64,000 nt of DNA. Origin: Bradyrhizobium sp. AUGA SZCCT0176. GTDB lineage: Bacteria > Pseudomonadota > Alphaproteobacteria > Rhizobiales > Xanthobacteraceae. Positions within the stretch are counted from its first letter, which is position 1. Each line of letters opens with the position of its first letter. This document shows, one piece after another, positions 8,047 to 27,425 of the stretch. Made by a program: the position numbers and the translations under genes. The stretch spans positions 1 to 64,000 of the forward strand of contig NZ_JAFCMB010000005.1 of NCBI RefSeq assembly GCF_018130145.1. The letters run 5' to 3'. The notes below the pieces were generated by a model. That model saw only the letters and a program-made list of their open reading frames with translations. It ran no database searches and was not told the origin of the DNA.

Positions 8047-8053
8047 CGTTTAC

Positions 8054-8175: not shown

Positions 8176-8180
8176 AGCTG

Positions 8181-9877: not shown

Positions 9878-9922
9878 GGGATGCTCGCTTCCGATCATCG
9901 CTGGAAGTCAGCACGCGCGGAT

Positions 9923-9937
9923 ATTATTGTCAATAAT
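9923..9937. promoter_or_regulatory. Operator 1 (ATTATTGTCAATAAT), probable GntR site
   Basis: A 15-base palindrome, perfect apart from its central base. On the minus strand it contains TTGACA, positioned to be the -35 of the MocA/GntR operon (the -10 is weak). Its near-twin lies 62 bases away centre to centre, about six helical turns. Confidence 0.65.
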
Positions 9938-9984
9938 GCCACATGATTGGTGACGAAACAGCGTAATTTTGGCGCCGAATATCA

Positions 9985-10017
9985 AATATTGACAATAATT
10001 TCTCAGGCTCCTTTAGT
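9985..10017 (+). promoter_or_regulatory. Dehydratase promoter with operator 2 over the -35
   Basis: AATATTGACAATAAT (9985-9999) repeats operator 1 with two changed bases. It contains a perfect -35 TTGACA (9989-9994), then a 17-base spacer and a -10-like TTTAGT (10012-10017), 30 bases before the dehydratase ATG. A repressor bound here would block RNA polymerase. Confidence 0.65.
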
Positions 10018-10046
10018 GCGAGTCTGCTGCAACAGGGAAGAACAAG

Positions 10047-11756: not shown

Positions 11757-11772
11757 GCTTCGGTTGCCGCCT

Positions 11773-12576
11773 CTACTTCCCCTTGCTGGTGAACTTCTTC
11801 ACCGCAACACGGAAATCATCGGTGTGCATGGCGTCGATGATCTTCTGTTCCTCGGCATCAAGTTGCTGTTTGGTGGGGGTGACCGCGGCCTGGTAAACCA
11901 GCGACTTGGTGCCGCTGATCGCCGCTGGCGGGTTTTGCGCCAATCGCTCGGCGAATTTTTGCGTCGCCGCTTTCAGTTCTGCGGCCGGAACAACCCTGGC
12001 GACCAAACCCCAATCGTAAGCCTGCTGCGCCGAAAAACTGTCTTCAGCGAGAAACAGCTGCAGCGCGCGGCGGGTGCCGACGGTGCCGACCATGCCGACG
12101 GTGCTGCCGCCATCCGGCGACACGCCGATCTTGGCGTAAGCCGGCGTGAAGCGGGCGTCTTCAGCGGCGATGCAAAGATCCGTCACGAAGGCGAGGCCCA
12201 TGCCGGCGCCCGCCGCCGAGCCGTGAACGCTCGACAGCACGATCTTCGGCATCCGCCGGATGGTTTCGATGAAGGCGTGATAGTGCTTCAAGAGTTCGCC
12301 GACCACGGGCGCAATGGTGTCTGCGGCTGCGGCAGCACCGATGGTCTGCAGATCGCCGCCGGCGCTGAAGGCGCGGCCTTCGCCCTGGATCACCAGCACT
12401 CTTATCGCGTCATTGCCCTCGACCTCGGCGCCAAGCTGTTCCAGCTTTTTCGCGATTGACAGGTCGATCGAGTTGAACGCCGCGGGCCGGTTCAGCGTGA
12501 TGGTCGCAATCGGACCTTCGATCGTGAGCCGTGCCGGCTCATCGGATGGGGCAGCGGTATGATCTTGTGTCGTCAT
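11773..12576 (-). CDS. Enoyl-CoA hydratase/isomerase (crotonase) family protein
   Basis: 267 residues with the crotonase fold. ALVIQGEGRAFSAGGDL-type segment (here VLVIQGEGRAFSAGGDL) and HGSAAGAGMGLAFVTDLCIA form the two oxyanion-hole loops. FTPAYAKIGVSPDGGSTVGM follows, with Asp where some hydratases have the second catalytic Glu. That residue pattern leaves isomerase, hydratase or another acyl-CoA activity open. True start MTTQDHT at 12576, behind GGAGGA; the longer upstream frame is non-coding. It ends 16 bases from the convergent dehydratase stop. No other beta-oxidation gene is adjacent. Confidence 0.88.
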   Translation of the reverse strand: MTTQDHTAAPSDEPARLTIEGPIATITLNRPAAFNSIDLSIAKKLEQLGAEVEGNDAIRVLVIQGEGRAFSAGGDLQTIGAAAAADTIAPVVGELLKHYHAFIETIRRMPKIVLSSVHGSAAGAGMGLAFVTDLCIAAEDARFTPAYAKIGVSPDGGSTVGMVGTVGTRRALQLFLAEDSFSAQQAYDWGLVARVVPAAELKAATQKFAERLAQNPPAAISGTKSLVYQAAVTPTKQQLDAEEQKIIDAMHTDDFRVAVKKFTSKGK

Positions 12577-12807
12577 CGGAAAATCCTCCGGGCGGAACGG
12601 ACGCCCGCATTTAAATCGCAGAAGCCCGGGGGAGACAATCCCGGACCCGGCCGCAGGATGCGGCCTTATCCGTGCTTCCGGGGCAGGGGTGCCCTTGCGC
12701 GTTGCCGAACCTTGAGGCCTAATGGGGGTGCCCATCGTTCGGGACGCGGACACGAGCGCCGCTCTCACGAGGCGAGCAAGCCAACATCAGCAGTGAGAGG
12801 AGACGAC

Positions 12808-12849
12808 ATGGGTAATTCCTGTGCGCCTGCAATTGGGTTGTCCCGATGA
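12808..12849 (+). CDS. Possible 13-residue leader peptide upstream of the ferredoxin reductase
   Basis: ATG 12808 follows a good ribosome site (GAGAGGAGACGAC) and encodes MGNSCAPAIGLSR. Its TGA overlaps the ATG of the reductase (ATGA at 12846-12849). The reductase itself has no clear ribosome site, so coupled reinitiation from this leader would explain its translation. No similarity recognised. The rest of 12577-12807 holds only a small GC-rich hairpin (GGCCGC...GCGGCC, 12649-12665) and no other gene that I can see. Confidence 0.45.
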   Translation: MGNSCAPAIGLSR

Positions 12850-14081
12850 CGCAAGGACCGGATTTGCAAGGGCCTGTCGTAATCGTCGGCGCCGGACATG
12901 CCGGCTTTCAGGTTGCGGCCTCGCTTCGCCAGCACGGCTTTGCCGAGCGCATTGTGCTCCTGAATGACGAAGGCCATCTGCCATACCAGCGGCCGCCGCT
13001 GTCCAAGGCCTATCTGAAGGGAACCGGGGGGCCTGATAGCCTGATGTTCCGGCCGGAAAAATTCTTTTCCGACCAGAAGATCGAGCTGATTTCCGACCGG
13101 GCGGTGTCGATCGACCGCGGGGCGCATAAATTGTTGCTCGCCTCCGGTTCCTTCCTCGACTACGGCCACCTCGTGCTGGCGACCGGCGCGCGCAATCGCC
13201 TGCTCGACATCCCCAACGCGAATCTGGAGGGCGTGCGCTATTTGCGCACCCTCGACGAAAGCGAGGCGTTGCGGCACCGGATCGGATCCGGCCAGCGCGT
13301 GGTCGTGATCGGGGCCGGCTTCATCGGACTGGAATTCGCCGCGACCGCCCGGGGCAAGGGCCTGGAAGTCGACGTGGTCGAACTCGGCACCCGCGTGATG
13401 GCGCGCGCGGTGACCGCTGAAATCTCCGAATTCTTCCAGTCGAGCCACACTGCGGCCGGCATTCGCATTCATCTGGGCGTGCAGGTCACGAGCATCGAAA
13501 GCGACGGCAGCAATGTCACCGGCGTCAGCCTCAGCGATGGCCGGCATATGCCTGCCGACCTCATCGTGGTCGGGGTTGGTGTCCTGCCGAATGTCGAACT
13601 GGCGGCCCAGGCCGGCCTGCCGGTGGCGGCCGGTATCATCGTCGACGAACATCTGTTGACGGCCGATCCGGATATCTCGGCGGTCGGCGATTGCGCGCTC
13701 TATGCCAGCCCGCGCTTTGGCGGGTCGCTGCGGCTTGAATCCGTGCAGAACGCCACCGACCACGCGCGCTGTGTCGCGGCGCGGCTCACCGGCGATGCCA
13801 AAGTCTATGACGGGCTGCCGTGGTTCTGGAGCGACCAGGGTCCCCACAAGCTTCAGATCGCGGGTTTGACGACGGGCTATGACCAGGTGGCGGTGCGCGG
13901 CGATCAAGGGGCGGGAGCGTTCTCCGCCTTCTGCTACAAGTCCGGGCAACTCGTCGGCATCGAATCCGTCAACCGTGCCGGGGATCACATGTTCGGACGG
14001 CGCCTGCTGGCCGCCAACGGCTCGATTGGGCCGGAGCAGGCGGCTGATAGCAGCTTCGATCTGAAGAGCGCGCTGACTTAA
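12846..14081 (+). CDS. FAD-dependent ferredoxin (rubredoxin/putidaredoxin-type) reductase
   Basis: 411 residues. FAD-binding VVIVGAGHAGFQVA near the N-terminus, PYQRPPLSKAYL, NAD(H)-binding VVVIGAGFIGLEFA mid-protein, and the second FAD motif ADPDISAVGDCA are all in place. The set is typical of putidaredoxin reductase and palustrisredoxin reductase, which pass electrons from NADH to a [2Fe-2S] ferredoxin feeding a class I P450 or dioxygenase. No ferredoxin gene is adjacent. The class I P450 at 28784-30022, 15 kb away, is a possible client but the link is only inference. Translation is probably coupled to the tiny leader ORF that overlaps its start. Confidence 0.9.
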   Translation: MTQGPDLQGPVVIVGAGHAGFQVAASLRQHGFAERIVLLNDEGHLPYQRPPLSKAYLKGTGGPDSLMFRPEKFFSDQKIELISDRAVSIDRGAHKLLLASGSFLDYGHLVLATGARNRLLDIPNANLEGVRYLRTLDESEALRHRIGSGQRVVVIGAGFIGLEFAATARGKGLEVDVVELGTRVMARAVTAEISEFFQSSHTAAGIRIHLGVQVTSIESDGSNVTGVSLSDGRHMPADLIVVGVGVLPNVELAAQAGLPVAAGIIVDEHLLTADPDISAVGDCALYASPRFGGSLRLESVQNATDHARCVAARLTGDAKVYDGLPWFWSDQGPHKLQIAGLTTGYDQVAVRGDQGAGAFSAFCYKSGQLVGIESVNRAGDHMFGRRLLAANGSIGPEQAADSSFDLKSALT

Positions 14082-14178
14082 ATCGGAGTGCCGCCAGTCC
14101 ACTTGCATCGGCGGACCATTTCGGCAACGCTGTAGAAAGCTCGCCAGAGGCTTCCGGGAGTCAATCGGGGAGGGTAGC

Positions 14179-15165
14179 ATGTCCGCCTGGACACGCTGTC
14201 TGATGCTAAGCAGCGCCGTCATCCTTGCCATGGTCATGGCCGGCCCGACCTCGGCCCAGACCAAGCTGCGATGGGCGCATGTCTACGAGATCACCGAGCC
14301 CTACCACACCGAAGCGCTGTGGGCGGCGGGCGAGATCAGGAAACGTAGCAACGGCAAATTCGATATCGAGGTGTTTCCGGCTTCCCGGCTCGGCAACGAG
14401 AATCAGCTCAATGAGGGGCTTGGGCTCGGCACCGTCGATATCGTCTATGTCGGCAACAACTTCGTCGCGGCAACCTACAAGCCGCTCGGCATCACCGGCG
14501 CGCCGTTCATGCTGCGCGATTTCGACCATTGGAAGGCCTATCGCGCCAGCAAGCTGTTTGCCGACCTTGCGAAGGACTATGAAGACAAGACCCGGCACAA
14601 GATCGTCGCGCTGACCTATTACGGGCAGCGTCATGTCACCGCCAACAAGCCGATCAGCAAGCCCGAGGACATGAAGGGCATGAAGCTGCGTGTGCCGCCG
14701 GCGCCGCTGGTCCTGATGTTCACCAGATCCGTCGGCGCCAACGCAACGCCGATCGCGTTCTCCGACGTCTATAATGCGCTCCGGCAAGGTCTGGTCGATG
14801 GTCAGGAGAATCCGCTGCCCACGATCATGGCCAAGAAATTCTACGAGGTGCAGAGTCACATCGTGCTGAGCGGCCACATCACGGAATCGATGGTGACGGT
14901 GGTCGGCAGCCACGTCTGGAACAAGCTGAAGCCGGACGAGCAGAAGCTGTTTGCGGATACGATGAAGGAGGCCGCTGCGAAGGCGACGGAGGCGATCGAG
15001 GCTTCGGAACGGGTTTTGGCGACACAGCTCAAGAAGCTCGGCATGACCGTGGTCGAGCCGGATCGCGAAGCTTTCCGGCAAGCAGCGGTTCCGCTGCACA
15101 ACGATGCCGCCGCCGGCGCCGGATGGACGCGGGCGCAATACGACGAATTGCAGTCGTTGAAGTGA
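14179..15165 (+). CDS. TRAP transporter substrate-binding protein, DctP family (orphan)
   Basis: 328 residues with an N-terminal signal peptide (about 1-26, ending TSAQ) and mature start TKLRWAHVYE. DctP-family features: FPASRLGNENQLNEGLGLGTVDIVYVG, MKGMKLRVPPAPL (including the Arg that usually binds the substrate carboxylate), and FSDVYNALRQGLVDGQENPLPTI. It binds an organic acid in the periplasm. The DctQ and DctM membrane subunits are not adjacent on either side, so it must work with an unlinked permease or as a sensor partner. Strong ribosome site GGGGAGGG before ATG 14179. Confidence 0.9.
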   Translation: MSAWTRCLMLSSAVILAMVMAGPTSAQTKLRWAHVYEITEPYHTEALWAAGEIRKRSNGKFDIEVFPASRLGNENQLNEGLGLGTVDIVYVGNNFVAATYKPLGITGAPFMLRDFDHWKAYRASKLFADLAKDYEDKTRHKIVALTYYGQRHVTANKPISKPEDMKGMKLRVPPAPLVLMFTRSVGANATPIAFSDVYNALRQGLVDGQENPLPTIMAKKFYEVQSHIVLSGHITESMVTVVGSHVWNKLKPDEQKLFADTMKEAAAKATEAIEASERVLATQLKKLGMTVVEPDREAFRQAAVPLHNDAAAGAGWTRAQYDELQSLK

Positions 15166-15209
15166 CGGCTGCGTTTCACCGGCCCTGACGCGAACGTAGC
15201 GGAGAGGGG

Positions 15210-16118
15210 TCAGATGATGGCTGCCACTTCCGCCGCCGTCGGCATTGAGGGTGCTGCGCCCATCCGTTGCACGCAGATCGACGCGGCGGCATTGGCGTAA
15301 GTGAGCGCGTCCCGGATCGCGCGCCCGTCGGACAATTGTGCTGCCAGCGCGCCGACAAAGCAGTCCCCGGCGCCTGTCGTGTCGACGGCCTTGACCGCGC
15401 GGCCGGCGATGACAGACGCATCGCCGCCGCTCAGTGCGAGCACGCCGCGCTTGCCGAGGGTTACGCAGATCATCCGATCCGAGCTCGTGCGGAGCGACCG
15501 GGCCGCCTCGACGAAGCGCGCAGGCTCATCCGTGTCGCGAAGCTCAGTGCCGGTGAGAAACCCAAGCTCAGTCTCGTTGAGAACGAGGATGTCGACGAGA
15601 TCGAGCAATTCCTGTCCGAACCTGGTCGCGGGCGCGGGGTTGAGGATCGTGGTCGCACCGGCAGCGCGGGCGCGCTCGAAGAATGCAGCGATCGTGGGCA
15701 GCGGGATTTCGAACTGGCTGACTGCGATGTCGCCCCTGGCGAGAACGGGCGTGCCGACATCCTCGGCACTCACAAGCGCATTGGCACCGGGCACGACGAC
15801 GATGGTGTTGTCGGCATTGGCAATCGTGATGAGCGCCGTTCCGGTATGGGCCTCGGCGGTGTCCTTGAGATGCGCGAGGTCAACGCCTTGCGCGGCGAGA
15901 AACGCCCGCAATTGCTGCCCGAAGGCATCCGTACCCAGCCGGCCGATCAGCGTGGTTGATCCCCCGAGCTTGGCGGCCGCCACCGCCTGGTTGGCGCCCT
16001 TGCCGCCGGGGAAATACAGCACCGCATTGCCGGCGACGGTCTCGCCGACAAGCGGATGCCGGTCGGCGGTCGCCACCACATCCATGTTGATGCTGCCGGC
16101 GACGAAGACGCGCCCCAT
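15210..16118 (-). CDS. rbsK: Ribokinase-type PfkB sugar kinase
   Basis: 302 residues with the ribokinase pattern: GSINMD at the start, FPGGKGANQAVAAAKLGG (PfkB signature 1), NPAPA, and VDTTGAGDCFVGALAAQL (signature 2, catalytic Asp in GAGD). It phosphorylates ribose or a related sugar with ATP. It is the second gene of a two-gene unit: the other PfkB gene ends 20 bases upstream on the same strand. No ribose transporter is nearby, so the substrate is a guess. Confidence 0.85.
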   Translation of the reverse strand: MGRVFVAGSINMDVVATADRHPLVGETVAGNAVLYFPGGKGANQAVAAAKLGGSTTLIGRLGTDAFGQQLRAFLAAQGVDLAHLKDTAEAHTGTALITIANADNTIVVVPGANALVSAEDVGTPVLARGDIAVSQFEIPLPTIAAFFERARAAGATTILNPAPATRFGQELLDLVDILVLNETELGFLTGTELRDTDEPARFVEAARSLRTSSDRMICVTLGKRGVLALSGGDASVIAGRAVKAVDTTGAGDCFVGALAAQLSDGRAIRDALTYANAAASICVQRMGAAPSMPTAAEVAAII

Positions 16119-16138
16119 ACTAGCTCCAATTCATCCGG

Positions 16139-17032
16139 TCACGAGCTGGCCGCAAACGCCATCTTGACCACTTCGATATCCGTCAGCGTCGGCAATCCCG
16201 CCTCGTTGCCGAGCCGCTGGATCTTGAAGGTCGACGCGGCGCGCGCAAATTCGAAATGGTCACGCCAGCTTTTGCCGGGGTTGCTCAAATAGGAATAGAC
16301 ATAGGCGCCATGGAAGACGTCGCCGGCGCCGTTGGTGTCGATCACGCGCTCGCGCGGGATCGGCAGTGCGGGCAGGCTGCGAACCGAGCCGGTCTCGTCG
16401 TACCACAGCAGGCCCTTTTCGCCGAGCGTGACGCCGCCGACCCGGCAGCCTCGGCTCTTGAGATAATCCAGCATTGTCTCCGGCGTCTTGTCCATCTGTT
16501 CGCACAGCCGCTCGGCGACGATGGCAACGTCGATGAATTCCAGGAGCTCATGGGTGTTGCTGCGCAGGCCGCCGCCGTCGAGCGAGGTCAGGATGCCGGC
16601 TTCGCGACATAGTTTGGCGTAATGGATGGCAGCGTCCGGCTGGTGGCCGTCGATATGCAGCGCGCGGCATCCCTTGATATTGAGGATGGGGAAGGGATGG
16701 ATGTGTTCGTCGTCGCGGCAACGCACGATGGCGCGCTTGCCGTCCTTTGGCATGATGAAGGACAGCGAGGAGGCGTTGACCTTGCGCGGATGGATCGAGA
16801 TTCCGTATTTCGCGCTCATGTCCCAGAACATGCGGCCGAGCCAGTCGTTGGCGACCGTCGCAATCAGGTCCGGCACGATGCCGAGCTTGGCGCAGCAGAA
16901 CGCCGCCGTGACGGCGTTGCCGCCAAACGACACCGCGTAGGCCGAGGCCACATGCTTTTCATCGCCGGTCGGCATGTGGTCGGTGATGAAGGTGACGTCG
17001 ATATAGGTCTGTCCGATGAAGAGGGCCTGCAT
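16139..17032 (-). CDS. PfkB-family carbohydrate kinase
   Basis: 297 residues, distinct in sequence from the neighbouring ribokinase. FIGQTYIDVTFITDHMPTGDE at the N-terminus, SFGGNAVTAAFCCAKLG as the first PfkB signature, and VIDTNGAGDVFHGAYVYSYL as the second (catalytic Asp in GAGD). The start at MQALFIGQ (17032) gives the family's usual beginning; a longer frame to 17119 is not needed. Cotranscribed with the ribokinase-like gene. Some relatives phosphorylate unusual sugars such as sulfofructose; nothing here fixes the substrate. Confidence 0.86.
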   Translation of the reverse strand: MQALFIGQTYIDVTFITDHMPTGDEKHVASAYAVSFGGNAVTAAFCCAKLGIVPDLIATVANDWLGRMFWDMSAKYGISIHPRKVNASSLSFIMPKDGKRAIVRCRDDEHIHPFPILNIKGCRALHIDGHQPDAAIHYAKLCREAGILTSLDGGGLRSNTHELLEFIDVAIVAERLCEQMDKTPETMLDYLKSRGCRVGGVTLGEKGLLWYDETGSVRSLPALPIPRERVIDTNGAGDVFHGAYVYSYLSNPGKSWRDHFEFARAASTFKIQRLGNEAGLPTLTDIEVVKMAFAASS

Positions 17033-17277
17033 TCGTTTTCCGTCATTGTACTTCAGAGTCTTGGGCTGAAGGGTGGGTCCGGCCCGGCGCGCTACACTAG
17101 CACCGCTTGTCGGATGCATTCGCTGAAATTATTCGCAGCCGTGCCGTGTTTGCGGCTTGAGAAGGGCATGTCAGGGGATTAGGACCGTCCTTGAGGGATC
17201 GTCAGGATGCCGGGCCATAACGGCTGACCGCTGCCCGGGGTTCCGGACGGTGCGACAAAAGGGGGAGGGCTTTTGCC

Positions 17278-18327: not shown

Positions 18328-19035
18328 TTGGCAAAGGCAAAACGTGTTCTGAAATGGCAGCGCGACCCCGAGGGCATGCGGATTCGCATTCTCGAGGCCG
18401 CCAAGCAGGAATTCGCCGCCCACGGCCTTGCCGGGGCGCGCGTCGACCGGATCGCGGCCAATGCCGGCGCCAACAAGCGCATGCTGTATTATCACGTCGG
18501 CAACAAGGAGGACCTCTACCTCGAGGTGCTCGAAGGCGCCTATGAGCAGATCCGCGCCGAGGAGCGCGGCCTCGATCTCGAACATCTCGATCCGCCGGAA
18601 GCCATCGAACGGCTGATCGATTTCACCTGGAACTACTTCATCCGCAATCCGGAATTCCTGGCGCTGCTCAATACGGAAAACCTTGCCAAAGCGCGCCACC
18701 TCAAGCGCTCGACCAAGGTCAAATCGATGCACTCGCCGTTCGTCGAGATGATCCGCACCGTGGTCAATCGCGGCGTCGAAAGCGGTGACTTCCGCGTCGC
18801 GGTCGATCCGGTCCAGCTCTATATCTCGATCGCCGGTCTGTGCTTCTTCTATCTGTCGAACAGCGCGACGCTCAGCGTGATTTTCGGCCGCGACCTCCTG
18901 AAGAAGGAGGCGCGGGACGAGCGCCTCGCCCACATGGTCGCGCTGGTGCTGGCGGCCCTGACGGGGAAATCCACTGCGGATTTCGGTAAGGTCAAGGCGG
19001 CGGGATTGCGGGCTCCGGCGCATCAGCCTGTGTGA
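18328..19035 (+). CDS. TetR/AcrR-family transcriptional regulator
   Basis: 235 residues. DNA-binding domain at about 15-65: RIRILEAAKQEFAAHGLAGARVDRIAANAGANKRMLYYHVGNKEDLYLEVLE is a clear TetR helix-turn-helix region. The C-terminal ligand domain (about 75-220) has the form seen in RutR-like and aromatic-responsive relatives. The only in-frame start giving the full N-terminus is TTG 18328, which has a weak ribosome site; ATG 18376 would shorten it by 16 residues and is possible. Target unknown: the VOC gene upstream is a candidate, and the next gene downstream is nearly 900 bases away. Confidence 0.85.
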   Translation: MAKAKRVLKWQRDPEGMRIRILEAAKQEFAAHGLAGARVDRIAANAGANKRMLYYHVGNKEDLYLEVLEGAYEQIRAEERGLDLEHLDPPEAIERLIDFTWNYFIRNPEFLALLNTENLAKARHLKRSTKVKSMHSPFVEMIRTVVNRGVESGDFRVAVDPVQLYISIAGLCFFYLSNSATLSVIFGRDLLKKEARDERLAHMVALVLAALTGKSTADFGKVKAAGLRAPAHQPV

Positions 19036-19653: not shown

Positions 19654-19678
19654 TTGACATGATTTCCGATAATCGGAA
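19654..19678 (+). promoter_or_regulatory. TTGACA box and IclR-like palindrome upstream of the ABC/enolase operon
   Basis: TTGACA (19654-19659) is followed by TTCCGATAATCGGAA (19664-19678), a perfect 7-1-7 palindrome of the form bound by IclR-family regulators such as PcaU. It contains GATAAT, which could itself be a -10. It lies 229 bases before the permease start, with a repeat element inserted between. No IclR gene is in the window. Confidence 0.5.
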
Positions 19679-19713
19679 CTGATTTGCCTGTCGGGCTATT
19701 TTGTCGCACCTCC

Positions 19714-19823
19714 CTCCGTCATTCCGGGCGCTGCAACGCGGCGAGCCCGGAATCCATTGGGCGGCGGCGCATGCGGCTTGATGGATTCCAGGTTCGCGCT
19801 TGGCGCGCCCCGGAATGACGGAG
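19714..19823. repeat. Inverted-repeat element, CGTCATTCCGG family
   Basis: 14-base terminal arms CTCCGTCATTCCGG / CCGGAATGACGGAG, with inner arms around gaatccat and atggattc. It sits between the candidate promoter and the first gene of the ABC/enolase operon, so it is probably transcribed as part of the leader. Confidence 0.88.
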
Positions 19824-19906
19824 AAAATGTCACAGGGATGCCACTGGACAGTATTTATCCAACGGGTTAATTTCTCGCCGACAAGAACCTGATCAGGGAG
19901 CGAGAC

Positions 19907-20716
19907 GTGGCCGAACCGAAGGGCCCCAGCGGCGTGACCAAAGCGCTTAACGCGGCGTGGGTGCGGCCGTTTTTGTTCCTTATTTTCATCGTCGTGATCT
20001 GGGACCTGACCATCCGCGTGTTCCGGATTCCCGCCTACCAGATCCCGGCGCCCGGCGATGTCGTCGCCGTGCTGTGGACCGATTGGCCGGAACTGCTGCG
20101 GCAGGCCTGGCCCACCACCTACGCCACCATTTGCGGGTTCCTGCTCTCGGCCGTGTTCGGCATTCCCGTCGCCATGCTGATCGCGGGATCGAAGACGGTG
20201 GAAAGCTACGTCTATCCGCTGCTGGTGTTCTCCCAGTCCGTGCCCAAGATCGCGATCGCGCCGCTGTTCGTGGTCTGGTTCGGCTTCGGCATCATCCCGA
20301 AAGTGATCTCGGCGTTTCTGCTGGGCTTCTTCCCGGTCGTGGTGTCGGCGGTGCAGGGCTTCAAATCGGTCGATCCTGACATGGTCGATCTGGCGCGCGC
20401 GATGCAGGGCAGCCGCTTTAGGGTATTCTGCGCCGTCAACCTGCCGCATGCGATGCCGGCGATCTTCTCCGGATTGAAAGTGTCGATCACGCTGGCTGTG
20501 GTCGGCGCGGTGGTCGGCGAATTTGTCGGTTCCAATTCCGGCATTGGCTATGTGCTGCAGCGCTCGATCGGCACCTTCGATTTGCCGACGATGTTCGCCG
20601 CGCTGGTGATTCTCGCGCTGCTGGGCGTGATCCTGTTCTGGATCGTCGACCGGATCGAAAGCCTCGTCATTCCCTGGCATGTCAGCCAGCGCGAGGACAT
20701 CATCTTTGCTTCGTAA
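19907..20716 (+). CDS. ABC transporter permease, SsuC/TauC (nitrate/sulfonate/NMT1) family
   Basis: 269 residues from GTG 19907, with GGAG 8 bases upstream. About six membrane segments in the binding-protein-dependent permease fold. The cytoplasmic EAA-type loop lies around VDPDMVDLARAMQGSRFRVFCAVNLPHAMPAIFSGLK, the normal ATPase contact. The family imports sulfonates, nitrate, thiamine precursors, riboflavin, aromatic acids and similar small molecules. First gene of a seven-gene operon running to 27425. Its transporter partners are the binding protein at 20780 and the ATPase at 21950. Confidence 0.92.
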   Translation: MAEPKGPSGVTKALNAAWVRPFLFLIFIVVIWDLTIRVFRIPAYQIPAPGDVVAVLWTDWPELLRQAWPTTYATICGFLLSAVFGIPVAMLIAGSKTVESYVYPLLVFSQSVPKIAIAPLFVVWFGFGIIPKVISAFLLGFFPVVVSAVQGFKSVDPDMVDLARAMQGSRFRVFCAVNLPHAMPAIFSGLKVSITLAVVGAVVGEFVGSNSGIGYVLQRSIGTFDLPTMFAALVILALLGVILFWIVDRIESLVIPWHVSQREDIIFAS

Positions 20717-20779
20717 ACTGTAACCCAAAAAAATCGGTTCACCCAAGGACCGCAAGCCAACACCAACGGGAGGACGACA

Positions 20780-21775
20780 ATGATACGAGCGATGACAGCG
20801 GTTTCGGCCGCGCTGATCTGGGCTGCGCTGGCAGTCCCCGCATCCGCCGCCGACAAGGTGGTGCTGATGCTGAACTGGTACGTCTATGGCGAGCATGCGC
20901 CGTTCTATTACGGCAAGGCCAAGGGCATCTATGCCGCCGAAGGCATCGATCTCGAAATTCAGGAAGGCCGCGGTTCGGCGGCGACCACGCAGGCGGTTGC
21001 GGCCAAGACCGCCAATTTCGGCTATGTCGACGTGCCAACCATGATGCGCGCGGCGGTCAAGGGCGCGCCGATCGTCGCTACCGGCGTGCTGCTGCAGACC
21101 AGCCCGATGTCGGCGATGGGTTTCGTCGAGAAGAACATCAAGAAGCCCGAAGACATCAAGGGCAAGACGGTGGCGATCACGCCCGCCGATTCCATGACCC
21201 AGATCTGGCCGCTGTTCCTGAAGAAGACCGGCCTGAAGGAAAGCGATTTCCAGACGGTGGCCGGTGACGGCCAGACCAAGCTCAACGCCGTCATCAACGG
21301 CCAGGCTGACCTCCTGCTGGGTTACGTCATGGACCAGTCGATGAAGATCAAGGACGCCACCGGCAAGGACGTCAACGCGATCAAGTTCGCCGACTACGGC
21401 ATCAACATGGTCTGCTCGGGCGTCGTCGCCAACACCGAGTTCGTCAAGGCCAATGCCGACCTCGTCAAGCGCTTCATGTCGGCGACGACCAAGGCCGTCG
21501 AAGCCGCCGAGAAGGAGCCGAAGGCCGCGGCGCAATCGATCCTCGACGCCAACCCCAAGGGCGGCAAGATCGAAACGCTGACGCAAGGCTTTGAGCTGAC
21601 CATCCCGCTCTACCGCACGGCCGAAACCAAGGGCAAGCGGCCGTTCGAGGTCACCGACCAGAACATGACCGACACGGTCAATCTGATGGTCGAGTATGGC
21701 GGCCTCGAAGCCAAGGCCAAGGACAATCCGAAGGCGTTTTATACCAATGATTATCTGCCGAAGGGTGGATCTTGA
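20780..21775 (+). CDS. ABC transporter substrate-binding protein, NMT1/SsuA-like
   Basis: 331 residues with a signal peptide (about 1-24, ending ASAAD). The mature start KVVLMLNWYVYGEHAPFYYGKAKGIYAAEGIDLEI is the classic NMT1/THI5-like opening, with the WY pair that stacks on ring-shaped ligands in THI5-type proteins. GSAATTQAVAAKTANFGYVD and KPEDIKGKTVAITPADS follow. It captures a small solute in the periplasm for the permease and ATPase on either side. Strong ribosome site GGGAGGACG. The operon contains four catabolic enzymes, so the ligand is probably a carbon source rather than sulfonate or nitrate. Confidence 0.9.
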   Translation: MIRAMTAVSAALIWAALAVPASAADKVVLMLNWYVYGEHAPFYYGKAKGIYAAEGIDLEIQEGRGSAATTQAVAAKTANFGYVDVPTMMRAAVKGAPIVATGVLLQTSPMSAMGFVEKNIKKPEDIKGKTVAITPADSMTQIWPLFLKKTGLKESDFQTVAGDGQTKLNAVINGQADLLLGYVMDQSMKIKDATGKDVNAIKFADYGINMVCSGVVANTEFVKANADLVKRFMSATTKAVEAAEKEPKAAAQSILDANPKGGKIETLTQGFELTIPLYRTAETKGKRPFEVTDQNMTDTVNLMVEYGGLEAKAKDNPKAFYTNDYLPKGGS

Positions 21776-21795
21776 GCCATTGATGACACATCCAT

Positions 21796-21933
21796 CGTCG
21801 TCCCTGCCGAGTGCGCGGTTGCGCACGGAGCAGGGACCCATAGCCACCGGCCTGCGTTGTTGCAGAAGGTCTCTACCTCCGTGCCCGAACGAAAGGGCAC
21901 GGCGTATGGGTCCCTGCGTTCGCAGGGACGACG
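21796..21933. repeat. Inverted-repeat element, GTCGTCCCTGC family, inside an operon
   Basis: Arms CGTCGTCCCTGC / GCAGGGACGACG with nested hairpins (tgcgc..gcgca and gtgccc..gggcac). It separates the binding-protein gene from the ATPase gene, so it is transcribed within the operon and may form a 3' stabilising or attenuating stem. Confidence 0.85.
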
Positions 21934-21949
21934 GGTGGAGGGAAACTGA

Positions 21950-22798
21950 ATGAGCGCAGCGACCAAAGCAACCAACCCCGATCAGCCCGCTGCGCATCTG
22001 CGCCTGGTGTCCGATCGGGCAGGCGCCGGCACGCCGGGGATCACGCTGTCGGGCGTGTCGAAGACCTATCGGTCGCGCGACGGCGATGTGCCGTCGCTGA
22101 AGCCGCTGGATTTTCATATCAACGAGGGCGAGTTCTTTGTCGTGGTCGGCCCGTCCGGCTGCGGCAAGTCCACGCTTCTCAAGATGATTTCGGGCCTGCT
22201 GGCGCCCTCGACCGGTGAAATCCTGGTCGAAGGCGAACAGGTGACAAAACCGCACGGCAATGTCGGCATCGTGTTCCAGAACGCGCTGCTGCTGCCATGG
22301 CGCAATATCCTCGGCAATGTGATGCTGCCGATCGACATGAAGCAGCTGCCGCGCGAGGAATATCTCGTGCGCGCCAAGGCGCTGCTCAAGATGGTCGGGC
22401 TCGAAGGCTTTGAGAAGAAGCTGCCCTGGCAGCTTTCGGGCGGCATGCAGCAGCGGGCCTCGATCTGCCGGGCGCTGGTGCATGATCCAAAAATCATGCT
22501 GATGGACGAGCCGTTCGGCGCGCTCGACGCCATGACGCGCGAGAAGATGAATGTCGAGCTGATGCGGATCCAGCGCGAGACCGGCAAGACCGTGCTGCTG
22601 ATTACGCATTCAATACCGGAAGCGGTGTTCCTCGCTGACCGCGTGCTGGTCATGACCGAGCGCCCCGGCGCGATCGCGGCGATCTATGACGTGCCGCTGC
22701 CGCGCCCGCGTTCGCTTGACGCGATGGCCGATCCCGCCTTCACCGAACTTGTGCAGCGAATTCGAAAGCACTTCTTCACCCAAAGCGCGCTGGATTGA
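21950..22798 (+). CDS. ABC transporter ATPase, SsuB/TauB-like
   Basis: 282 residues. Walker A GPSGCGKST, Q-loop in GIVFQNALLLPWRN, signature LSGGMQQRASICRAL, Walker B KIMLMDEPFGALD and switch His in LLITHS are all present. The N-terminal 30 residues are variable. It powers import by the permease at 19907. The ribosome site (GGAGGG) lies just past the inserted repeat element. The gene is followed after 9 bases by the enolase-superfamily gene, so transport and metabolism are on one transcript. Confidence 0.93.
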   Translation: MSAATKATNPDQPAAHLRLVSDRAGAGTPGITLSGVSKTYRSRDGDVPSLKPLDFHINEGEFFVVVGPSGCGKSTLLKMISGLLAPSTGEILVEGEQVTKPHGNVGIVFQNALLLPWRNILGNVMLPIDMKQLPREEYLVRAKALLKMVGLEGFEKKLPWQLSGGMQQRASICRALVHDPKIMLMDEPFGALDAMTREKMNVELMRIQRETGKTVLLITHSIPEAVFLADRVLVMTERPGAIAAIYDVPLPRPRSLDAMADPAFTELVQRIRKHFFTQSALD

Positions 22799-22807
22799 GC
22801 CGGGCTG

Positions 22808-24211
22808 ATGCCGCCACGTCTGACCGTCCGAGATATCGCTTTCTTTGAACGCCCGGTGACTTTTGCCCGGCCGTTCCGGTTCGGCGCCGTCGTCATCAAC
22901 GCGACGCCGCAGATGTTCGTGCGGGTCGAGATCGAGGTTGAGGGAAAAGGCAAGGCGACAGGTGCAAGTGCCGAGTTTCTCGTGGCAAAATGGTTCGACA
23001 AGCGGCCGCATCTCTCACCACAGGAGACGATCACGGAGTTGCGGCGCTCGCTGCTGATCGCGCGCGAACTCTATCTGGCGCAATCGGGCTACGAGACCGC
23101 GTTCGGCCTGCATGCGGCCTGCATCGGTTCGCAGATCGCCGCTTGCGCCAAGGAAGACATCCCGCCGCTTGCGGCCGCCTATGGCCCTGCCGAAATCGAC
23201 AAGGCGATCCTCGACGCGCTGCTGCGCGCGACCGGCGCCAACTTCTTTGACGGCATGGCTGATAATATCGCCGGCGTCGATGCGCGGCTGTCGCGCGACC
23301 TCGGCGATGAAGATGTTTCGCGCTTCCTTGTCCGCCGTCAGCGGCTGGCGCGCGTCGCGATCCGGCATACGGTCGGCATGGATGATCATGTCGAAGGCGA
23401 GGGCGGTGTTGCCGATGTCAGGGAAAATTCCGGCGCACGATACTTCAAGCTCAAGCTCAATGGCGATCCCGTCCATGATGCGGAGCGCCTGACCCGCATC
23501 GGCAGAGAACTTGCCACGCTGCCGTATGATTACAGCGTCACGCTGGATGCCAACGAGCAATATGCCGATCTCAGCGTGCTGGGCGCGCTGGTCGAGCGCC
23601 TCGACCGCGACGGTGCCCTGAAGCCGATCGCATCACGACTGCTCTATATCGAGCAGCCGATGCCGCGCGATATCACGCGGCAGTCGCCGCTCCGCGCGCT
23701 CGCCAGCCGCGACTTCATCGTCGATGAGGCCGATGATTCCTATGACGCGTTCCCCGCGGCGCGCGCGCTGGGCTATCGCGGCATCTCCTCGAAATCCTGC
23801 AAGGGCATCTACAAATCGGTCATCAACGCGACCCGCGCCGCCAAATGGAGCGCGGATGGCGACAAGGCCTTTATCGCCGGCGAGGACCTGACCTGTCAGG
23901 CCGGGCTAGCCGTGCAGCAGGATCTGGCGCTTGGCGCGCTGATCGGCGTCACCCACGCCGAGCGCAACGGCCATCATTATGTTGATGGGTTTGGTGATAC
24001 GCCCGCTCCTGAGGCGGAAGCGTTTCTAACCGCCCATCCTGATCTCTATTTACGCGACGGCAAGAAAATCCGCCTCGCGATCCATGACGGCGATCTCCTG
24101 ACGGGATCGCTGACGACACCAGGCTTTGCCACGTCAGTGCATCCGGGCTGGTCCGCGATGTCGCCGCTGGAGCGGCCAAAGCCACGCATTCCAAGGGAGC
24201 AAGCGATATGA
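22808..24211 (+). CDS. Enolase-superfamily (mandelate racemase-like) enzyme of unknown substrate
   Basis: 467 residues, longer than typical mandelate-racemase members (about 350-400). Superfamily residues visible: KLK (214-216) as the first acid/base motif, metal ligands Asp247 (LDANEQ), Glu282 (YIEQP) and Asp306/Glu307 (VDEAD), and Lys329/Lys332 in ISSKSCKGIYK on the opposite side. It should abstract a proton alpha to a carboxylate and then racemise, eliminate water or cycloisomerise. The insertion around residues 90-180 is unlike classical members. It overlaps the next gene by ATGA. I do not recognise a characterised homologue; the operon suggests the first or second catabolic step on an imported acid. 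Confidence 0.8.
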   Translation: MPPRLTVRDIAFFERPVTFARPFRFGAVVINATPQMFVRVEIEVEGKGKATGASAEFLVAKWFDKRPHLSPQETITELRRSLLIARELYLAQSGYETAFGLHAACIGSQIAACAKEDIPPLAAAYGPAEIDKAILDALLRATGANFFDGMADNIAGVDARLSRDLGDEDVSRFLVRRQRLARVAIRHTVGMDDHVEGEGGVADVRENSGARYFKLKLNGDPVHDAERLTRIGRELATLPYDYSVTLDANEQYADLSVLGALVERLDRDGALKPIASRLLYIEQPMPRDITRQSPLRALASRDFIVDEADDSYDAFPAARALGYRGISSKSCKGIYKSVINATRAAKWSADGDKAFIAGEDLTCQAGLAVQQDLALGALIGVTHAERNGHHYVDGFGDTPAPEAEAFLTAHPDLYLRDGKKIRLAIHDGDLLTGSLTTPGFATSVHPGWSAMSPLERPKPRIPREQAI

Positions 24212-25359
24212 CGACCAAACGCCTCGGCCTGATCATGAACGGTGTGACCGGCCGCATGGGGCTCAACCAGCATCTGATCCGCTCCATCGTCGCGATCCGC
24301 GACCAGGGCGGCGTGGTGCTTGGCAATGGTGACCGCATGATGCCGGACCCGATCCTGATCGGCCGTGATGCAGATAAAGTGGAGCGTCTCGCCAAGCGCT
24401 TCAACGTCGAGCGCTGGTCCACCGACCTCGACAAGGCGCTGGCCGACAAGAATGACACCATCTTCTTCGATGCTGCGACCACGCAGGCGCGGCCCACGCT
24501 GCTGACCAAGGCGATCAATGCCGGCAAGCACGTCTATTGCGAAAAGCCGATCGCGACCAATCTCGAGGAGGCCGTTGCGGTGCTGCGCCTCGCTGCTGCA
24601 AAAGGCGTCAAGCACGGCACGGTGCAGGACAAGCTGTTCCTCCCGGGCCTCAAGAAGCTCGCCTTCCTGCGCGACTCCGGCTTCTTCGGCCGCATGCTCT
24701 CGGTGCGCGGCGAGTTCGGCTATTGGGTGTTCGAAGGCGGCTGGCAGGAGGCGCAGCGGCCGTCCTGGAATTACCGCAGCGAGGACGGCGGCGGCATCAT
24801 CCTCGACATGGTCTGCCACTGGCGTTACGTGCTCGACAATCTCTTCGGCGAGGTCGAGAGCGTGAGCTGCACCGGCACCACGGACATTCCCGAACGTTTC
24901 GACGAGAAGAACAAGCAATACAAGGCGACCGCCGACGATTCCGCCTACGCCACCTTCCGCCTCAAGGGCGGGGTGATCGCGCACATCAACATGTCCTGGG
25001 TGACGCGGGTCTATCGCGACGATCTCGTCACCTTCCAGGTCGACGGCACCCATGGCTCGGCGGTCGCGGGGCTGACCGATTGCGTCATTCAGGCGCGGCA
25101 GGCGACGCCACGGCCGGTGTGGAATCCGGACGAGAAGCGCACGCATGATTTCTATGCCGATTGGCAGACGCTCCCCGAGAACGTCGTCTACGACAACGGC
25201 TTCAAGGAGCAGTGGGAAATGTTCATTCGGCACGTTTGCGAGGACGCGCCCTACAAGTATACGCTGCTGGAAGGCGCCAAGGGCGTGCAGCTCGCGGAAT
25301 GCGCCTTGCAGAGCTGGCGCGAACGGCGCTGGATCGACGTCGCTCCGATCAAGGTGTGA
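24208..25359 (+). CDS. Gfo/Idh/MocA-family oxidoreductase
   Basis: 383 residues. N-terminal nucleotide-binding domain beginning GLIMNGVTGRMGLNQHL, with GVTGRMG in place of the commoner GxGxxG. The EKP motif CEKP is at 111-114. The C-terminal domain includes GGGIILDMVCHWRYVLDNLFG, the conserved D..xH segment. Probably an NAD(P)-dependent sugar or cyclitol-type dehydrogenase. The start codon overlaps the upstream stop (ATGA) and has AGGGAG in front. It is quite different from the MocA enzyme at 8870, so a different substrate is likely. Confidence 0.87.
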   Translation: MTTKRLGLIMNGVTGRMGLNQHLIRSIVAIRDQGGVVLGNGDRMMPDPILIGRDADKVERLAKRFNVERWSTDLDKALADKNDTIFFDAATTQARPTLLTKAINAGKHVYCEKPIATNLEEAVAVLRLAAAKGVKHGTVQDKLFLPGLKKLAFLRDSGFFGRMLSVRGEFGYWVFEGGWQEAQRPSWNYRSEDGGGIILDMVCHWRYVLDNLFGEVESVSCTGTTDIPERFDEKNKQYKATADDSAYATFRLKGGVIAHINMSWVTRVYRDDLVTFQVDGTHGSAVAGLTDCVIQARQATPRPVWNPDEKRTHDFYADWQTLPENVVYDNGFKEQWEMFIRHVCEDAPYKYTLLEGAKGVQLAECALQSWRERRWIDVAPIKV

Positions 25360-25368
25360 GGTGAAGCC

Positions 25369-26562
25369 ATGAACAAGCCGGTAATGCCTGTCTCGTCGCT
25401 GTCGCTGAAACTGCCGACCGCGAACCGCAGCATCGAAACCTATCGCCTGGCGGCGTCGCGGATTTTCCCGGCGCGGCTCGAAGGCACAATGAACCGCGTG
25501 GCGTTTTCGGCGGCGCATGTGGTCGCCGATCCCTTTGCCGACAATGATCCGTGGCTGACGGCGGCGATCGATTGGGACAAGACCATCGCGTTCCGCGAAC
25601 ACATCTGGGACCTCGGTCTCGGCGTTGCCGAGTCGATGGACACCGCGCAGCGCGGCATGGGGCTGGACTGGCCGACCTCGCTGGAATTGATCCAGCGCTC
25701 GGTGAGGGCTGCCAGGGCGAGGAGCAATGCGCTGGTGTTCTCCGGCGCCGGCACCGACCACCTCGCGGTCGAGGATGCTGAGAGTATCGACGACGTGATC
25801 CGCGCCTATGAGGAGCAGATCGCGGCGGTCGAGAAAGCCGGCGGGCGCATCATCCTGATGGCCTCGCGCGCGCTGGCGAAGATCGGCCGCAATGCCGACG
25901 ATTACGCCAAGGTGTACAATCGCGTGCTGTCGCAAGTCCGCGAGCCCGTGATCATTCATTGGCTCGGCGACATGTTCGACCCGGCGCTGGCAAATTATTG
26001 GGGCACCTCGAGCCTCGATGAGGCCATGGACATCGCGGTCGGCATCATCAACGCCAACGCCGCCAAGGTTAATGGCGTCAAGGTTTCGCTGCTCGACAAG
26101 CAGCGCGAGATCGACATGCGCCGCCGGCTCGACAAGAATGTAAAAATGTATACCGGCGACGATTTCAACTATGCCGAACTGATCGCCGGCGACGACAAGG
26201 GCTTTTCGCACGCGCTGCTCGGCATCTTCGATGCGATTGCGCCGGCGGCGTCCTACGCATTGTCGCGGCTGGCGGCCGGCGATGAGGCCGGCTTTCACGA
26301 CGTGCTCGGGCCGACGGTGCCGCTGTCGCGGCATATCTTCAAGGCGCCGACCCGGTTCTACAAAACGGGAATCGTGTTCATGGCCTATCTCAACGGCCAC
26401 CAGGACCATTTCACCATGGTGGGTGGGCAGGAGAGCACGCGCTCGACGCTGCATCTGGCCGAACTGTTCAGGTTGGCCGACCAGGCGGGCCTGCTCGCCA
26501 ATCCGGAACTGGCAACACGGCGGATGAAGACCGTGCTCGCGACACGCGGCGTTGAGGCCTGA
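25369..26562 (+). CDS. DUF993 / dihydrodipicolinate-synthase-like protein
   Basis: 397 residues. I recognise the family (DUF993, often labelled dihydrodipicolinate synthase family) from MNRVAFSAAHVVADP, AIDWDKTIAFREHIWDLGLG and the long C-terminal barrel. In aldolases of the DapA fold a Lys forms a Schiff base; here Lys238 in VNGVKVSLLD is the likely equivalent. That predicts a pyruvate-type or other retro-aldol cleavage. No member has a function that I know of. It is tightly packed, overlapping the next gene by TGATG, between the MocA oxidoreductase and a TIM-barrel isomerase, consistent with the cleavage step of a short degradation pathway. Confidence 0.75.
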   Translation: MNKPVMPVSSLSLKLPTANRSIETYRLAASRIFPARLEGTMNRVAFSAAHVVADPFADNDPWLTAAIDWDKTIAFREHIWDLGLGVAESMDTAQRGMGLDWPTSLELIQRSVRAARARSNALVFSGAGTDHLAVEDAESIDDVIRAYEEQIAAVEKAGGRIILMASRALAKIGRNADDYAKVYNRVLSQVREPVIIHWLGDMFDPALANYWGTSSLDEAMDIAVGIINANAAKVNGVKVSLLDKQREIDMRRRLDKNVKMYTGDDFNYAELIAGDDKGFSHALLGIFDAIAPAASYALSRLAAGDEAGFHDVLGPTVPLSRHIFKAPTRFYKTGIVFMAYLNGHQDHFTMVGGQESTRSTLHLAELFRLADQAGLLANPELATRRMKTVLATRGVEA

Positions 26563-27425
26563 TGCGGGATTTTTCGAAAGACCATCGCTGGCTGTCGCTG
26601 AACACGGCAACGGTCCGCAAGCAGGGCGACCTCATCGCGATCATCGAGGCCTGCGCGCGGCATGGCATCCGCGCCATCGATCCGTGGCGCGATCAGGTCG
26701 CCGCCGTCGGCCTCGAGCGTGCCGCGCGGGCGGTGCGCGATGCCGGGCTGGAATTGACCGGCTATTGCCGCGGCGGCATGTTCACGGCGGATGCTGCCCG
26801 TCGCATCGAGGCGCGCGACGACAACCGCCGCGCCGTCGACGAGGCCAAGGCGCTGGGCGCGCCCTGCATCGTGCTGGTCGTCGGCGGACTACCGCAATAT
26901 TCGCGGCCGGGCAGTGCGGTCTCAAAGGATATCCTGGCAGCCCGCAGCCAGGTGCAGGACGGCATCGCCGAGATGTTGGACTATGCGAGAAGCGCAAACA
27001 TGCCGCTGGCGATCGAGCCGCTGCATCCCGCCTATGCTGGCGACCGAGCCTGCGTCAATACGACAAAGCAGGCGCTCGATATTTGCGACGCGCTCGATCC
27101 GAAACGATCAGGCGCGCTCGGCGTCGCGCTCGACGTCTATCACATCTGGTGGGATCCGGAATTGCTGCCGCAGATCGCGCGCGCCGGCAAGGACCGCCTG
27201 TTGGCGTTCCACGTCTGCGACTGGCTGGTGCCGACCAAGGACATCCTCAACGACCGCGGCATGATGGGTGACGGCGTCATCGACATCAAATCGGTGCGTG
27301 CAGCCGTCGAGGCGCAGGGCTTTGAAGGGTATTCCGAGATCGAGATTTTTTCGGAGGAGTGGTGGCGCAAGCCGATGGATGAGGTGCTGCTGACCTGCAT
27401 CGAACGGCACCGGTCGGTGGTTTAG
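26562..27425 (+). CDS. Sugar phosphate isomerase/epimerase-like TIM-barrel protein
   Basis: 287 residues of the xylose-isomerase-like AP endonuclease 2 family. The expected metal ligands are visible: Glu152 (AIEPLHP), Asp191 (ALDVYH), His217 (FHVCDW) and Glu261 (EIEIFS). Relatives include IolE-type dehydratases and keto-sugar 3-epimerases. Last gene of the operon; its start overlaps the DUF993 stop. A repeat element that could serve as terminator starts 7 bases after its stop. Whether it isomerises, epimerises or dehydrates is not clear from sequence. Confidence 0.83.
   Translation: MRDFSKDHRWLSLNTATVRKQGDLIAIIEACARHGIRAIDPWRDQVAAVGLERAARAVRDAGLELTGYCRGGMFTADAARRIEARDDNRRAVDEAKALGAPCIVLVVGGLPQYSRPGSAVSKDILAARSQVQDGIAEMLDYARSANMPLAIEPLHPAYAGDRACVNTTKQALDICDALDPKRSGALGVALDVYHIWWDPELLPQIARAGKDRLLAFHVCDWLVPTKDILNDRGMMGDGVIDIKSVRAAVEAQGFEGYSEIEIFSEEWWRKPMDEVLLTCIERHRSVV

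Follow-up and report, generated by a model that had tools for sequence, protein, structure and literature searches.

The window considered here is a 64,000-nucleotide stretch of Bradyrhizobium sp. AUGA SZCCT0176 (contig NZ_JAFCMB010000005.1, positions 1 to 64,000), and our subject is an operon of seven consecutive plus-strand genes at window positions 19907-27425. In order, they encode an ABC permease, a periplasmic binding protein, an ABC ATPase, a divergent enolase-superfamily enzyme (ENO), a Gfo/Idh/MocA NAD(P) oxidoreductase (MOC), a DUF993 protein, and a xylose-isomerase-like TIM barrel (TIM). An initial annotation described an uptake-and-degradation operon with an uncharacterized substrate, and both the protein families and the conserved seven-gene order agree with this. 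The importer comprises a SsuC/TauC-like permease (19907-20716; BPD_transp_1, 115.7 bits), an NMT1/THI5-like binding protein (20780-21775; NMT1, 154 bits), and an ATPase of the taurine/nitrate type (21950-22798; ABC_tran, 117 bits). ENO (22808-24211) appears to have an MLE-like active site, judging from its residues and structure-model matches. MOC (24208-25359) matches three Gfo/Idh/MocA Pfam models, the DHDPS/NAL-like DUF993 protein with its candidate Schiff-base lysine K238 (25369-26562) matches PF06187 with 626 bits, and TIM (26562-27425) matches AP_endonuc_2 with 136 bits. All of these Pfam matches exceed their cut-offs. No NCBIfam equivalog reaches its cut-off for MOC, TIM, the permease, the binding protein, or the TetR protein encoded upstream, and the same holds for the ATPase among the best 25 of 187 families; for MOC, ENO, and DUF993, no curated equivalog was reached in Pfam or NCBIfam.

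The gene junctions are as initially annotated: ENO and MOC overlap in an ATGA at 24208, DUF993 and TIM share a TGATG at 26560-26564, and gaps of 9 bases precede ENO and DUF993; the binding protein and the ATPase follow gaps of 63 and 174 bases, respectively. The start of the operon had been placed at 19654. This position is the first base of a TTGACA string and not a gene start; the first gene begins at 19907, and its reading frame contains no start codon between the preceding stop and that position.

The operon is confirmed to be real and more than a chance arrangement. Among 80 Bradyrhizobium-type loci fetched via the DUF993 protein, 73 hold the complete seven-gene set in order. Of the seven incomplete loci, two (L078 and L080) are without importer and ENO, four (L009, L028, L045, and L065) start partway through the operon, and in one (L008) the permease is matched but the binding protein is not. 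Across the genus, ENO has a match in 136 of 146 genomes and DUF993 in 139 of 146, counts that include partial or paralogous matches (G742, with ENO 45% identical, and the fragments in G751 and G743). Identity to the window proteins in loci L003-L082 is 70 to 87% for ENO, 87 to 99% for MOC, and 86 to 97% for DUF993; the lower conservation of ENO might reflect shifting substrate specificity. The seven-gene set with an NMT1 importer is likewise present in two genomes that belong to the phylum but not to the window's class (L127 and L128), on a Chelatococcus plasmid, on an unannotated Azospirillum lipoferum plasmid read by similarity (L148), and in more loci of the order (e.g., L189-L193 and L213). 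A sample of the order has ENO in 44 of 297 genomes, one of them a doubtful match (G564, E 2.7e-4). In a phylum-wide sample of 398 genomes, DUF993 is found in 36, ENO in 15, and both in 14; this co-occurrence is not an independent test, because 11 of the 14 genomes belong to the window's own family. DUF993 ranges over Rhizobium, Sinorhizobium, roseobacters, Burkholderiales, and actinobacteria, and the ENO group over proteobacteria, one actinobacterium, and haloarchaea.

Upstream of the permease lies a promoter- or operator-like box, TGGACAGTATTTATCCAACGGGTTAATTT (19845-19873, plus strand), with a 16-bp core, TTATCCAACGGGTTAA, at 19855-19870. It ends 34 bases and begins 62 bases before the permease start and is the best-conserved segment of the 400 upstream bases in a scan against 25 of 74 loci. 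Sites of the type TTAWCCNNNNGGWTAA, with at most one mismatch, stand within 110 bases upstream of the permease match in 73 of the 74 permease-bearing loci. The 80 loci together (1.29 million bases) contain 76 such sites; besides these 73, there is a site at another position in L069 and a single site in each of L078 and L080. In the latter two loci, from which the importer and ENO are absent, the box is directly upstream of MOC. Neither genome has an ENO match, with the same query that finds one in 136 of the 146 genomes of the genus. The window's genome has one exact copy of the 16-mer and a second site at two mismatches, against one match for a reversed control pattern. The core is an imperfect palindrome, self-complementary at 10 of 16 positions, and the box is not among the promoters listed by a sigma-70 scan.

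The position of the box before the importer, and before MOC where importer and ENO are absent, argues for the importer and enzymes forming one transcription unit read from the box upstream of the importer. The absence of importer and ENO from the L078 and L080 loci, and of ENO from both genomes, likewise argues that importer and ENO are gained or lost together. L078 and L080 are natural contrast strains for this absence. Regulation of the importer separately from the enzymes, which the initial annotation had named as a possible objection, is disfavored by the conserved box. Importer and enzymes could still be unrelated neighbors under separate control, a view that would draw on the gaps of 174 and 63 bases and on the differing importers among lineages. 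It is hard to reconcile with the 9-base gap between ATPase and ENO, the 4-base overlap of ENO and MOC, the same gene order in distant lineages, and the importer's box standing before MOC where importer and ENO are absent, and we regard it as highly implausible.

A TetR/AcrR gene at 18328-19035 (plus strand; TetR_C_29, 146 bits; TetR_N, 45 bits) probably belongs to the unit and encodes the probable operon regulator. It is present in 71 of the 80 Bradyrhizobium-type loci. For comparison beyond the genus we used 40 long ENO loci from outside Bradyrhizobium (two short ones, L215 and L216, were left out of 42), in which a gene was scored as present anywhere within about 10 kb on either side; these loci are not independent, as several share their genus with others in the set. 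The TetR gene is present in 28 of them. The best NCBIfam match of the protein is RutR, at 56 bits, below the equivalog cut-off of 368. We infer that this TetR protein binds the predicted box. Outside Bradyrhizobium the operator claim is weak: allowing one mismatch, box-like sites turned up in just 4 loci (L128, L129, L132, and L148) of a more distant set of 40, and another 28 loci yielded a single one (L209), distant from the TetR and enzyme genes. A perfect 15-base palindrome, TTCCGATAATCGGAA (19664-19678), beside the TTGACA string was also considered as an operator, given its position at the originally quoted start, and was dropped because it has no exact match among 166 loci and 28 of 100 shuffled versions matched with at most two mismatches.

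ENO matches no curated family above its cut-off. It scores 19.4 bits against MR_MLE_C (cut-off 29.4), has no Pfam N-terminal domain match, and has no NCBIfam match. All 50 homologues compared, some with as little as 30% identity and haloarchaeal and actinobacterial ones among them, retain K214, K216, D247, E282, D306, K329, and K332. In the MLE subgroup, the second barrel strand carries a KxK motif and the sixth a lysine, and three acidic residues bind the metal. ENO has a corresponding set in K214xK216, the acidic D247/E282/D306, and the lysine K329/K332, which we take to be the MLE-type arrangement; the motif and lysine are placed on their strands by spacing and by a structure model of pLDDT 63.6. 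This model matches 2oqh in Foldseek (E 7.6e-12) and 3ik4 with a VIA Z of 23.6 and a root mean square deviation of 3.4 over 337 residues, with the muconate-cycloisomerase entries 3my9 and 3dg3 tied. Muconate-cycloisomerase and dipeptide-epimerase entries are among the best structure matches, and the predicted fold is a capping domain plus barrel. Judging from residues and model, ENO is the representative of an uncharacterized muconate-cycloisomerase-like group of the enolase superfamily. Enolase-superfamily chemistry requires a carboxylate.

Gfo/Idh/MocA proteins combine Rossmann and C-terminal domains with an EKP lysine and a D-x3-H motif. MOC keeps the latter two, as E112-K113-P114 and D200..H204, in 13 of 13 representatives (all more than 50% identical to it). 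Its nearest solved relative, 3oqb (E 6.5e-240), has only "Oxidoreductase" as its molecule name in the PDB. The nearest solved relatives of TIM are 3ju2/3qc0 (SMc04130; 353 bits), with 7vpf also matching (232 bits), and its E152, D191, H217, and E259, presumably metal ligands, are conserved in 18 of 18 representatives.

MOC and TIM invite comparison with cyclitol catabolism of the inositol (iol) or rhizopine (moc) type, with MOC as an inositol-type dehydrogenase and TIM as a protein like IolE, IolI, or MocC. The best NCBIfam match of MOC is indeed IolG (72 bits), TIM has a weak PDB match to IolI (E 2.6e-6), an IolB-like protein is encoded in a Rhizobium ENO operon, and the roles of moc genes would fit. 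However, all NCBIfam scores of MOC and TIM are far below their cut-offs, the seven genes include no ring-opening hydrolase, IolB, or IolC, no IolD above the cut-off is found in the genome (best 243, cut-off 715), and the carboxylate that ENO requires is not accounted for. We give a cyclitol route little chance, and the canonical inositol route is rejected on missing genes, with IolD sought across the genome and IolB and IolC among the seven genes. A 3-keto-glycoside route seems about equally improbable. As in the use of levoglucosan, disaccharide 3-dehydrogenation, or C-glycoside deglycosylation, MOC would oxidize C3 of a glycoside and TIM would eliminate the aglycone. MOC matches levoglucosan dehydrogenase and, in the PDB, DgpA (E 1e-4), and additional MocA proteins accompany the MOC-DUF993-TIM triad in four loci (L133-L135 and L151). 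Yet the levoglucosan dehydrogenase match scores 57 bits against an equivalog cut-off of 650 and that to disaccharide 3-dehydrogenase 18.6 against 650, ENO would be left unexplained, and a Schiff-base lyase is not known to be part of such routes.

The DUF993 protein has a solved Sinorhizobium meliloti homologue, labeled hypothetical (4dnh, E 3e-162). In DHDPS/NAL enzymes (class I aldolases), the Schiff-base lysine stands where the sixth strand ends and the catalytic tyrosine where the fifth does. All 29 DUF993 representatives have K238, H197, W198, and Y210; H197-W198 lies at a predicted strand end, and Y210 precedes the lysine by 28 residues, which is the DapA spacing. A weak PF06187 match elsewhere in the window's genome is by sequence an ordinary DapA-like protein, and a profile of the 29 DUF993 sequences aligns K238 with its GIK lysine and GDD with its GED. 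This alignment is the clearest link that sequence comparison suggests between DUF993 and DHDPS. In the structure prediction that the initial annotation had recommended, the model (pLDDT 57) gives a VIA Z of 12.7 to 3qfe over 151 residues, with many DHDPS/NAL chains near 10. Based on alignment and model, DUF993 is most plausibly a distant DHDPS/NAL-like protein with K238 as a candidate Schiff-base lysine. No paper naming DUF993 was found in the open-access literature, a search that may miss subscription papers.

The importer has the NMT1/Ssu-type layout of one NMT1 binding protein, one permease, and one ATPase. The permease matches SaoP (105 bits), SsuC (84.5), and TauC (81.6) in NCBIfam, all below cut-off, and the ATPase reaches 231 bits against the taurine ATPase model (cut-off 357). 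PDB relatives of the binding protein are 4nmy, THI5, and an HMP-precursor binder. Importers of this type are known for sulfonate, nitrate, or pyrimidine ligands. The initial annotation considered the pairing of this importer with these enzymes unusual. It recurs in Chelatococcus, in Azospirillum, and in the two genomes of another class, and it is one of several pairings, since other lineages combine these enzymes with TTT or CUT1 importers. Among the 40 long ENO loci, 15 have an NMT1-type ABC importer, 15 a TTT system (annotated examples are in Nitratireductor and Paroceanicella), and 3 a CUT1 sugar ABC importer. Importers of the NMT1 and TTT kinds mostly carry anions. The enzymes are thus a mosaic in which the importer is interchangeable.

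The same neighborhoods, compared along lines that the initial annotation had proposed, show a second kind of replacement. DUF993 is present in 24 of the 40 loci, and a second DHDPS-like family, which we call c29 (about 355 residues; PF00701, 32.8 bits, cut-off 22.1), in 10, with 2 loci having both; at least one of the two is present in 32 of 40. MOC accompanies DUF993 in 23 of its 24 loci and TIM in all 24, an SDR dehydrogenase accompanies c29 in 9 of its 10, and MOC or an SDR dehydrogenase is present in 33 of 40. Two distinct pairs of a dehydrogenase and a DHDPS-like protein fill the same slots. The loci bearing c29, in which it seems to replace DUF993 and is usually paired with the SDR, are L132, L145, L157, L197-L201, L210, L212, and L214; c29 and DUF993 stand together in L132, L197, and L200.

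The MOC-DUF993-TIM triad also occurs without ENO, alongside sugar ABC importers, TTT systems, or MFS proteins, and in Paracoccus and Erwinia it is found with glycerate kinase. Glycerate kinase genes are near DUF993 in several lineages and D-2-hydroxyacid dehydrogenase genes near ENO or the triad in others, and C3 acid products are therefore suggested. A Rhizobium operon (L149 and L150) combines ENO with an IolB-like isomerase of the KduI family, a GH39 glycosidase, a TIM barrel, a D-2-hydroxyacid dehydrogenase, and a dipeptide-type ABC importer; by similarity, L146 has part of this set. ENO homologues with 30 to 33% identity are encoded on two haloarchaeal plasmids, beside MocA proteins and an amidase in one (L155) and near genes for heparinase II/III, acetylxylan esterase, GNAT, and MocA proteins in the other (L156). 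A divergent DUF993 protein with a changed GDD motif is encoded in a Streptomyces polyketide cluster (L159, 9034-10224).

Some of these neighbors point to uronates. ENO could be a hexuronate or uronoside 4,5-dehydratase that forms a 4-deoxy-5-keto-uronate, which an isomerase (TIM here, a KduI/IolB protein elsewhere) and a reductase (MOC, SDR, or 2-hydroxyacid dehydrogenase) would convert into a 2-keto-3-deoxy acid for cleavage by DUF993 or c29. The isomerase, glycosidase, TIM barrel, and dehydrogenase of the Rhizobium ENO operons would fit, as would the heparinase II/III and acetylxylan esterase genes near a haloarchaeal ENO homologue. The window itself also encodes an IlvD/EDD dehydratase and an SDR distantly like NAD sugar-phosphate dehydrogenases (140 bits, cut-off 400), and uronates offer the alpha-proton and beta-hydroxyl that ENO needs. 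We consider this version unlikely, because the KduI-family protein is IolB-like, matching only IolB in NCBIfam and that below cut-off (162 bits against 205). In addition, the seven genes include no KduI homologue, and acid-sugar dehydratases of the superfamily usually have the MR- or GlucD-type His-Asp dyad and not the MLE-type lysines seen here.

Elsewhere, DUF993 genes lack a MOC of the window's type, and in part TIM, and are found beside genes for CoA-transferase, enoyl-CoA hydratase, GMC oxidoreductase, and aldehyde dehydrogenase. For plasmid pAO1, a route of aldose oxidation has been proposed, Weimberg/Dahms-like, which presumably concerns the plasmid's MocA and DUF993 genes. MOC would accordingly oxidize an aldose such as D-xylose, and DUF993 would act on the 2-keto-3-deoxy acid. 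The pAO1 row lends this some substance, with an ABC importer, a GMC oxidoreductase, an aldehyde dehydrogenase labeled "D-xylose catabolic process," and a MocA protein that shares 56% identity with MOC, followed by DUF993 and glycerate kinase. The pAO1 xylose paper is listed in the references of PMC6305408 and PMC12472514. However, it has neither ENO nor TIM, and a free pentose would need no importer of the acid type; as an account of the window's operon, aldose oxidation is very unlikely.

We consider it moderately probable that the operon is a TetR-controlled system for the non-phosphorylative import and breakdown of one small carboxylated polyhydroxy compound, either sugar-acid-like or cyclitol-acid-like. 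A carboxylated substrate is suggested by the chemistry of ENO together with the NMT1 and TTT importers. In the proposed scheme, the ABC importer would take up the compound, and ENO would abstract the proton next to its carboxylate and dehydrate, epimerize, or (de)cyclize it. MOC would oxidize or reduce a carbinol with NAD(P), and TIM would shift the carbonyl by aldose-ketose isomerization or epimerization. DUF993 might then form a Schiff base via K238 and cleave or dehydrate a 2-oxo acid, giving products at the level of pyruvate or hydroxypyruvate. Aldopentose routes follow the same three-enzyme logic of dehydrogenase, dehydratase, and DHDPS-type enzyme, according to a published account (PMC9795676). 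The dehydrate/oxidize/cleave route envisaged in the initial annotation is thus of a known kind, since a dehydrogenase, an enolase-type dehydratase, and a DHDPS-type lyase fit such pathways (PMC9795676, in part). The further statement that the operon matches no known pathway holds in that we found no characterized homologous operon in the open-access literature, let alone one with a known substrate; it does not hold for the logic, which fits non-phosphorylative sugar-acid routes as far as that source describes them.

Several observations weigh against this proposal. The structure models of ENO and DUF993 are of low to middling confidence, and DUF993, when compared profile to profile against small DHDPS sets, gave no match. 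The initial annotation held the catalytic residues of all four enzymes to be intact, which is borne out for ENO, MOC, and TIM; DUF993 is DapA-like, but the DHDPS catalytic tyrosine could not be placed in it by alignment, with Y210 and H197 both in question. This placement matters because a pentonate dehydratase described in PMC9795676 has Gln for the DHDPS tyrosine and dehydrates without cleavage. Among the 40 long ENO loci, 8 have neither DUF993 nor c29 and 10 have none of the three importer types, although three of these ten encode an ABC importer of the dipeptide type, or ATPases typical of one. Triad loci that lack ENO can carry importers of the sugar ABC type (L133-L135) or an MFS gene (L153), so that a neutral compound may be the substrate of the triad itself. 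Finally, glycerate kinase of the TIGR00045 type, the one type searched for, was not found in the window's genome.

A broader proposal is possible, although we advance it tentatively and with limited confidence. The operon may represent a modular pathway that is widespread and has not been described, in which ENO forms a new functional class and acts directly on a sugar-like compound with a carboxylate (possibly a uronate or cyclic sugar acid), a MOC-DUF993 or SDR-c29 pair finishes the breakdown, three unrelated kinds of importer serve uptake, and DUF993 is a new kind of Schiff-base lyase.

The stretch upstream of the operon in the window (3556-17119) is rich in genes of sugar or sugar-acid type. 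It encodes an aldehyde dehydrogenase (3556-5082), the SDR mentioned above (7228-8046), a second MocA protein (8870-9898, minus strand), the IlvD/EDD dehydratase, above its subfamily cut-off (10047-11756), a TRAP binding protein (14179-15165), a ribokinase just above cut-off (15210-16118, minus strand), and a ribokinase-like protein (16139-17119, minus strand).

The operon is of interest beyond this genus in terms of the protein families it unites. MOC and DUF993 each have a close relative whose structure is solved but whose function is not known (3oqb and 4dnh), and the same is true of more general relatives of TIM (3ju2 and 3qc0). One ligand, reached through the binding protein, could give a name to several enzyme families at once, including DUF993 and the uncurated enolase group, and the substrate would show why nearly every Bradyrhizobium keeps the operon. 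In the open-access literature (subscription papers may be missed), no functional study was found under the SMc locus tags, under the PDB codes, or under combinations of terms, and a term search of PMC6214936 and PMC10494377 returned nothing on the cluster.

Among known systems, the non-phosphorylative oxidative sugar-acid routes (Weimberg, Dahms, and related ones) also use a Gfo/Idh/MocA dehydrogenase, an enolase-superfamily or IlvD dehydratase, and a DHDPS/NAL Schiff-base enzyme (PMC9795676, in part). The window's operon differs from them in having no lactonase among its seven genes, an extra TIM isomerase, an acid-type importer, and no curated equivalog for MOC, ENO, and DUF993. In S. meliloti, the region SMc04130-SMc04139 includes the solved homologues of TIM (SMc04130) and DUF993 (SMc04132). 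SMc04132, SMc04133, SMc04135, SMc04138, and SMc04139 have negative values in a gene table within the section on PhaR-regulated expression (PMC12542648, in part), and SMc04134 is named among transcription factors or regulated genes (PMC11387232, in part). The SMc-related triad loci (L133-L135, L151, and L205) differ from the window in their CUT1 sugar ABC importers and in that ENO is absent or lies between DUF993 and TIM. The pAO1 cluster of Paenarthrobacter nicotinovorans likewise has adjacent MocA and DUF993 genes, with a sugar ABC importer, whereas GMC oxidoreductase, aldehyde dehydrogenase, and glycerate kinase take the place of ENO and TIM. Catabolism of the iol/moc type likewise combines a MocA dehydrogenase with an AP_endonuc_2 TIM barrel. 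In contrast, the seven genes include no ring hydrolase, IolB, or kinase, and ENO and DUF993 have no place in iol/moc catabolism. SsuABC, TauABC, and THI5-type importers share the combination of an NMT1 binding protein, one permease, and one ATPase, whereas all NCBIfam scores of the window's importer are below cut-off and no sulfonate or pyrimidine enzymes are among the seven genes. Overall, this is a conserved operon that looks coregulated and in which a known kind of pathway logic is run by different family members.

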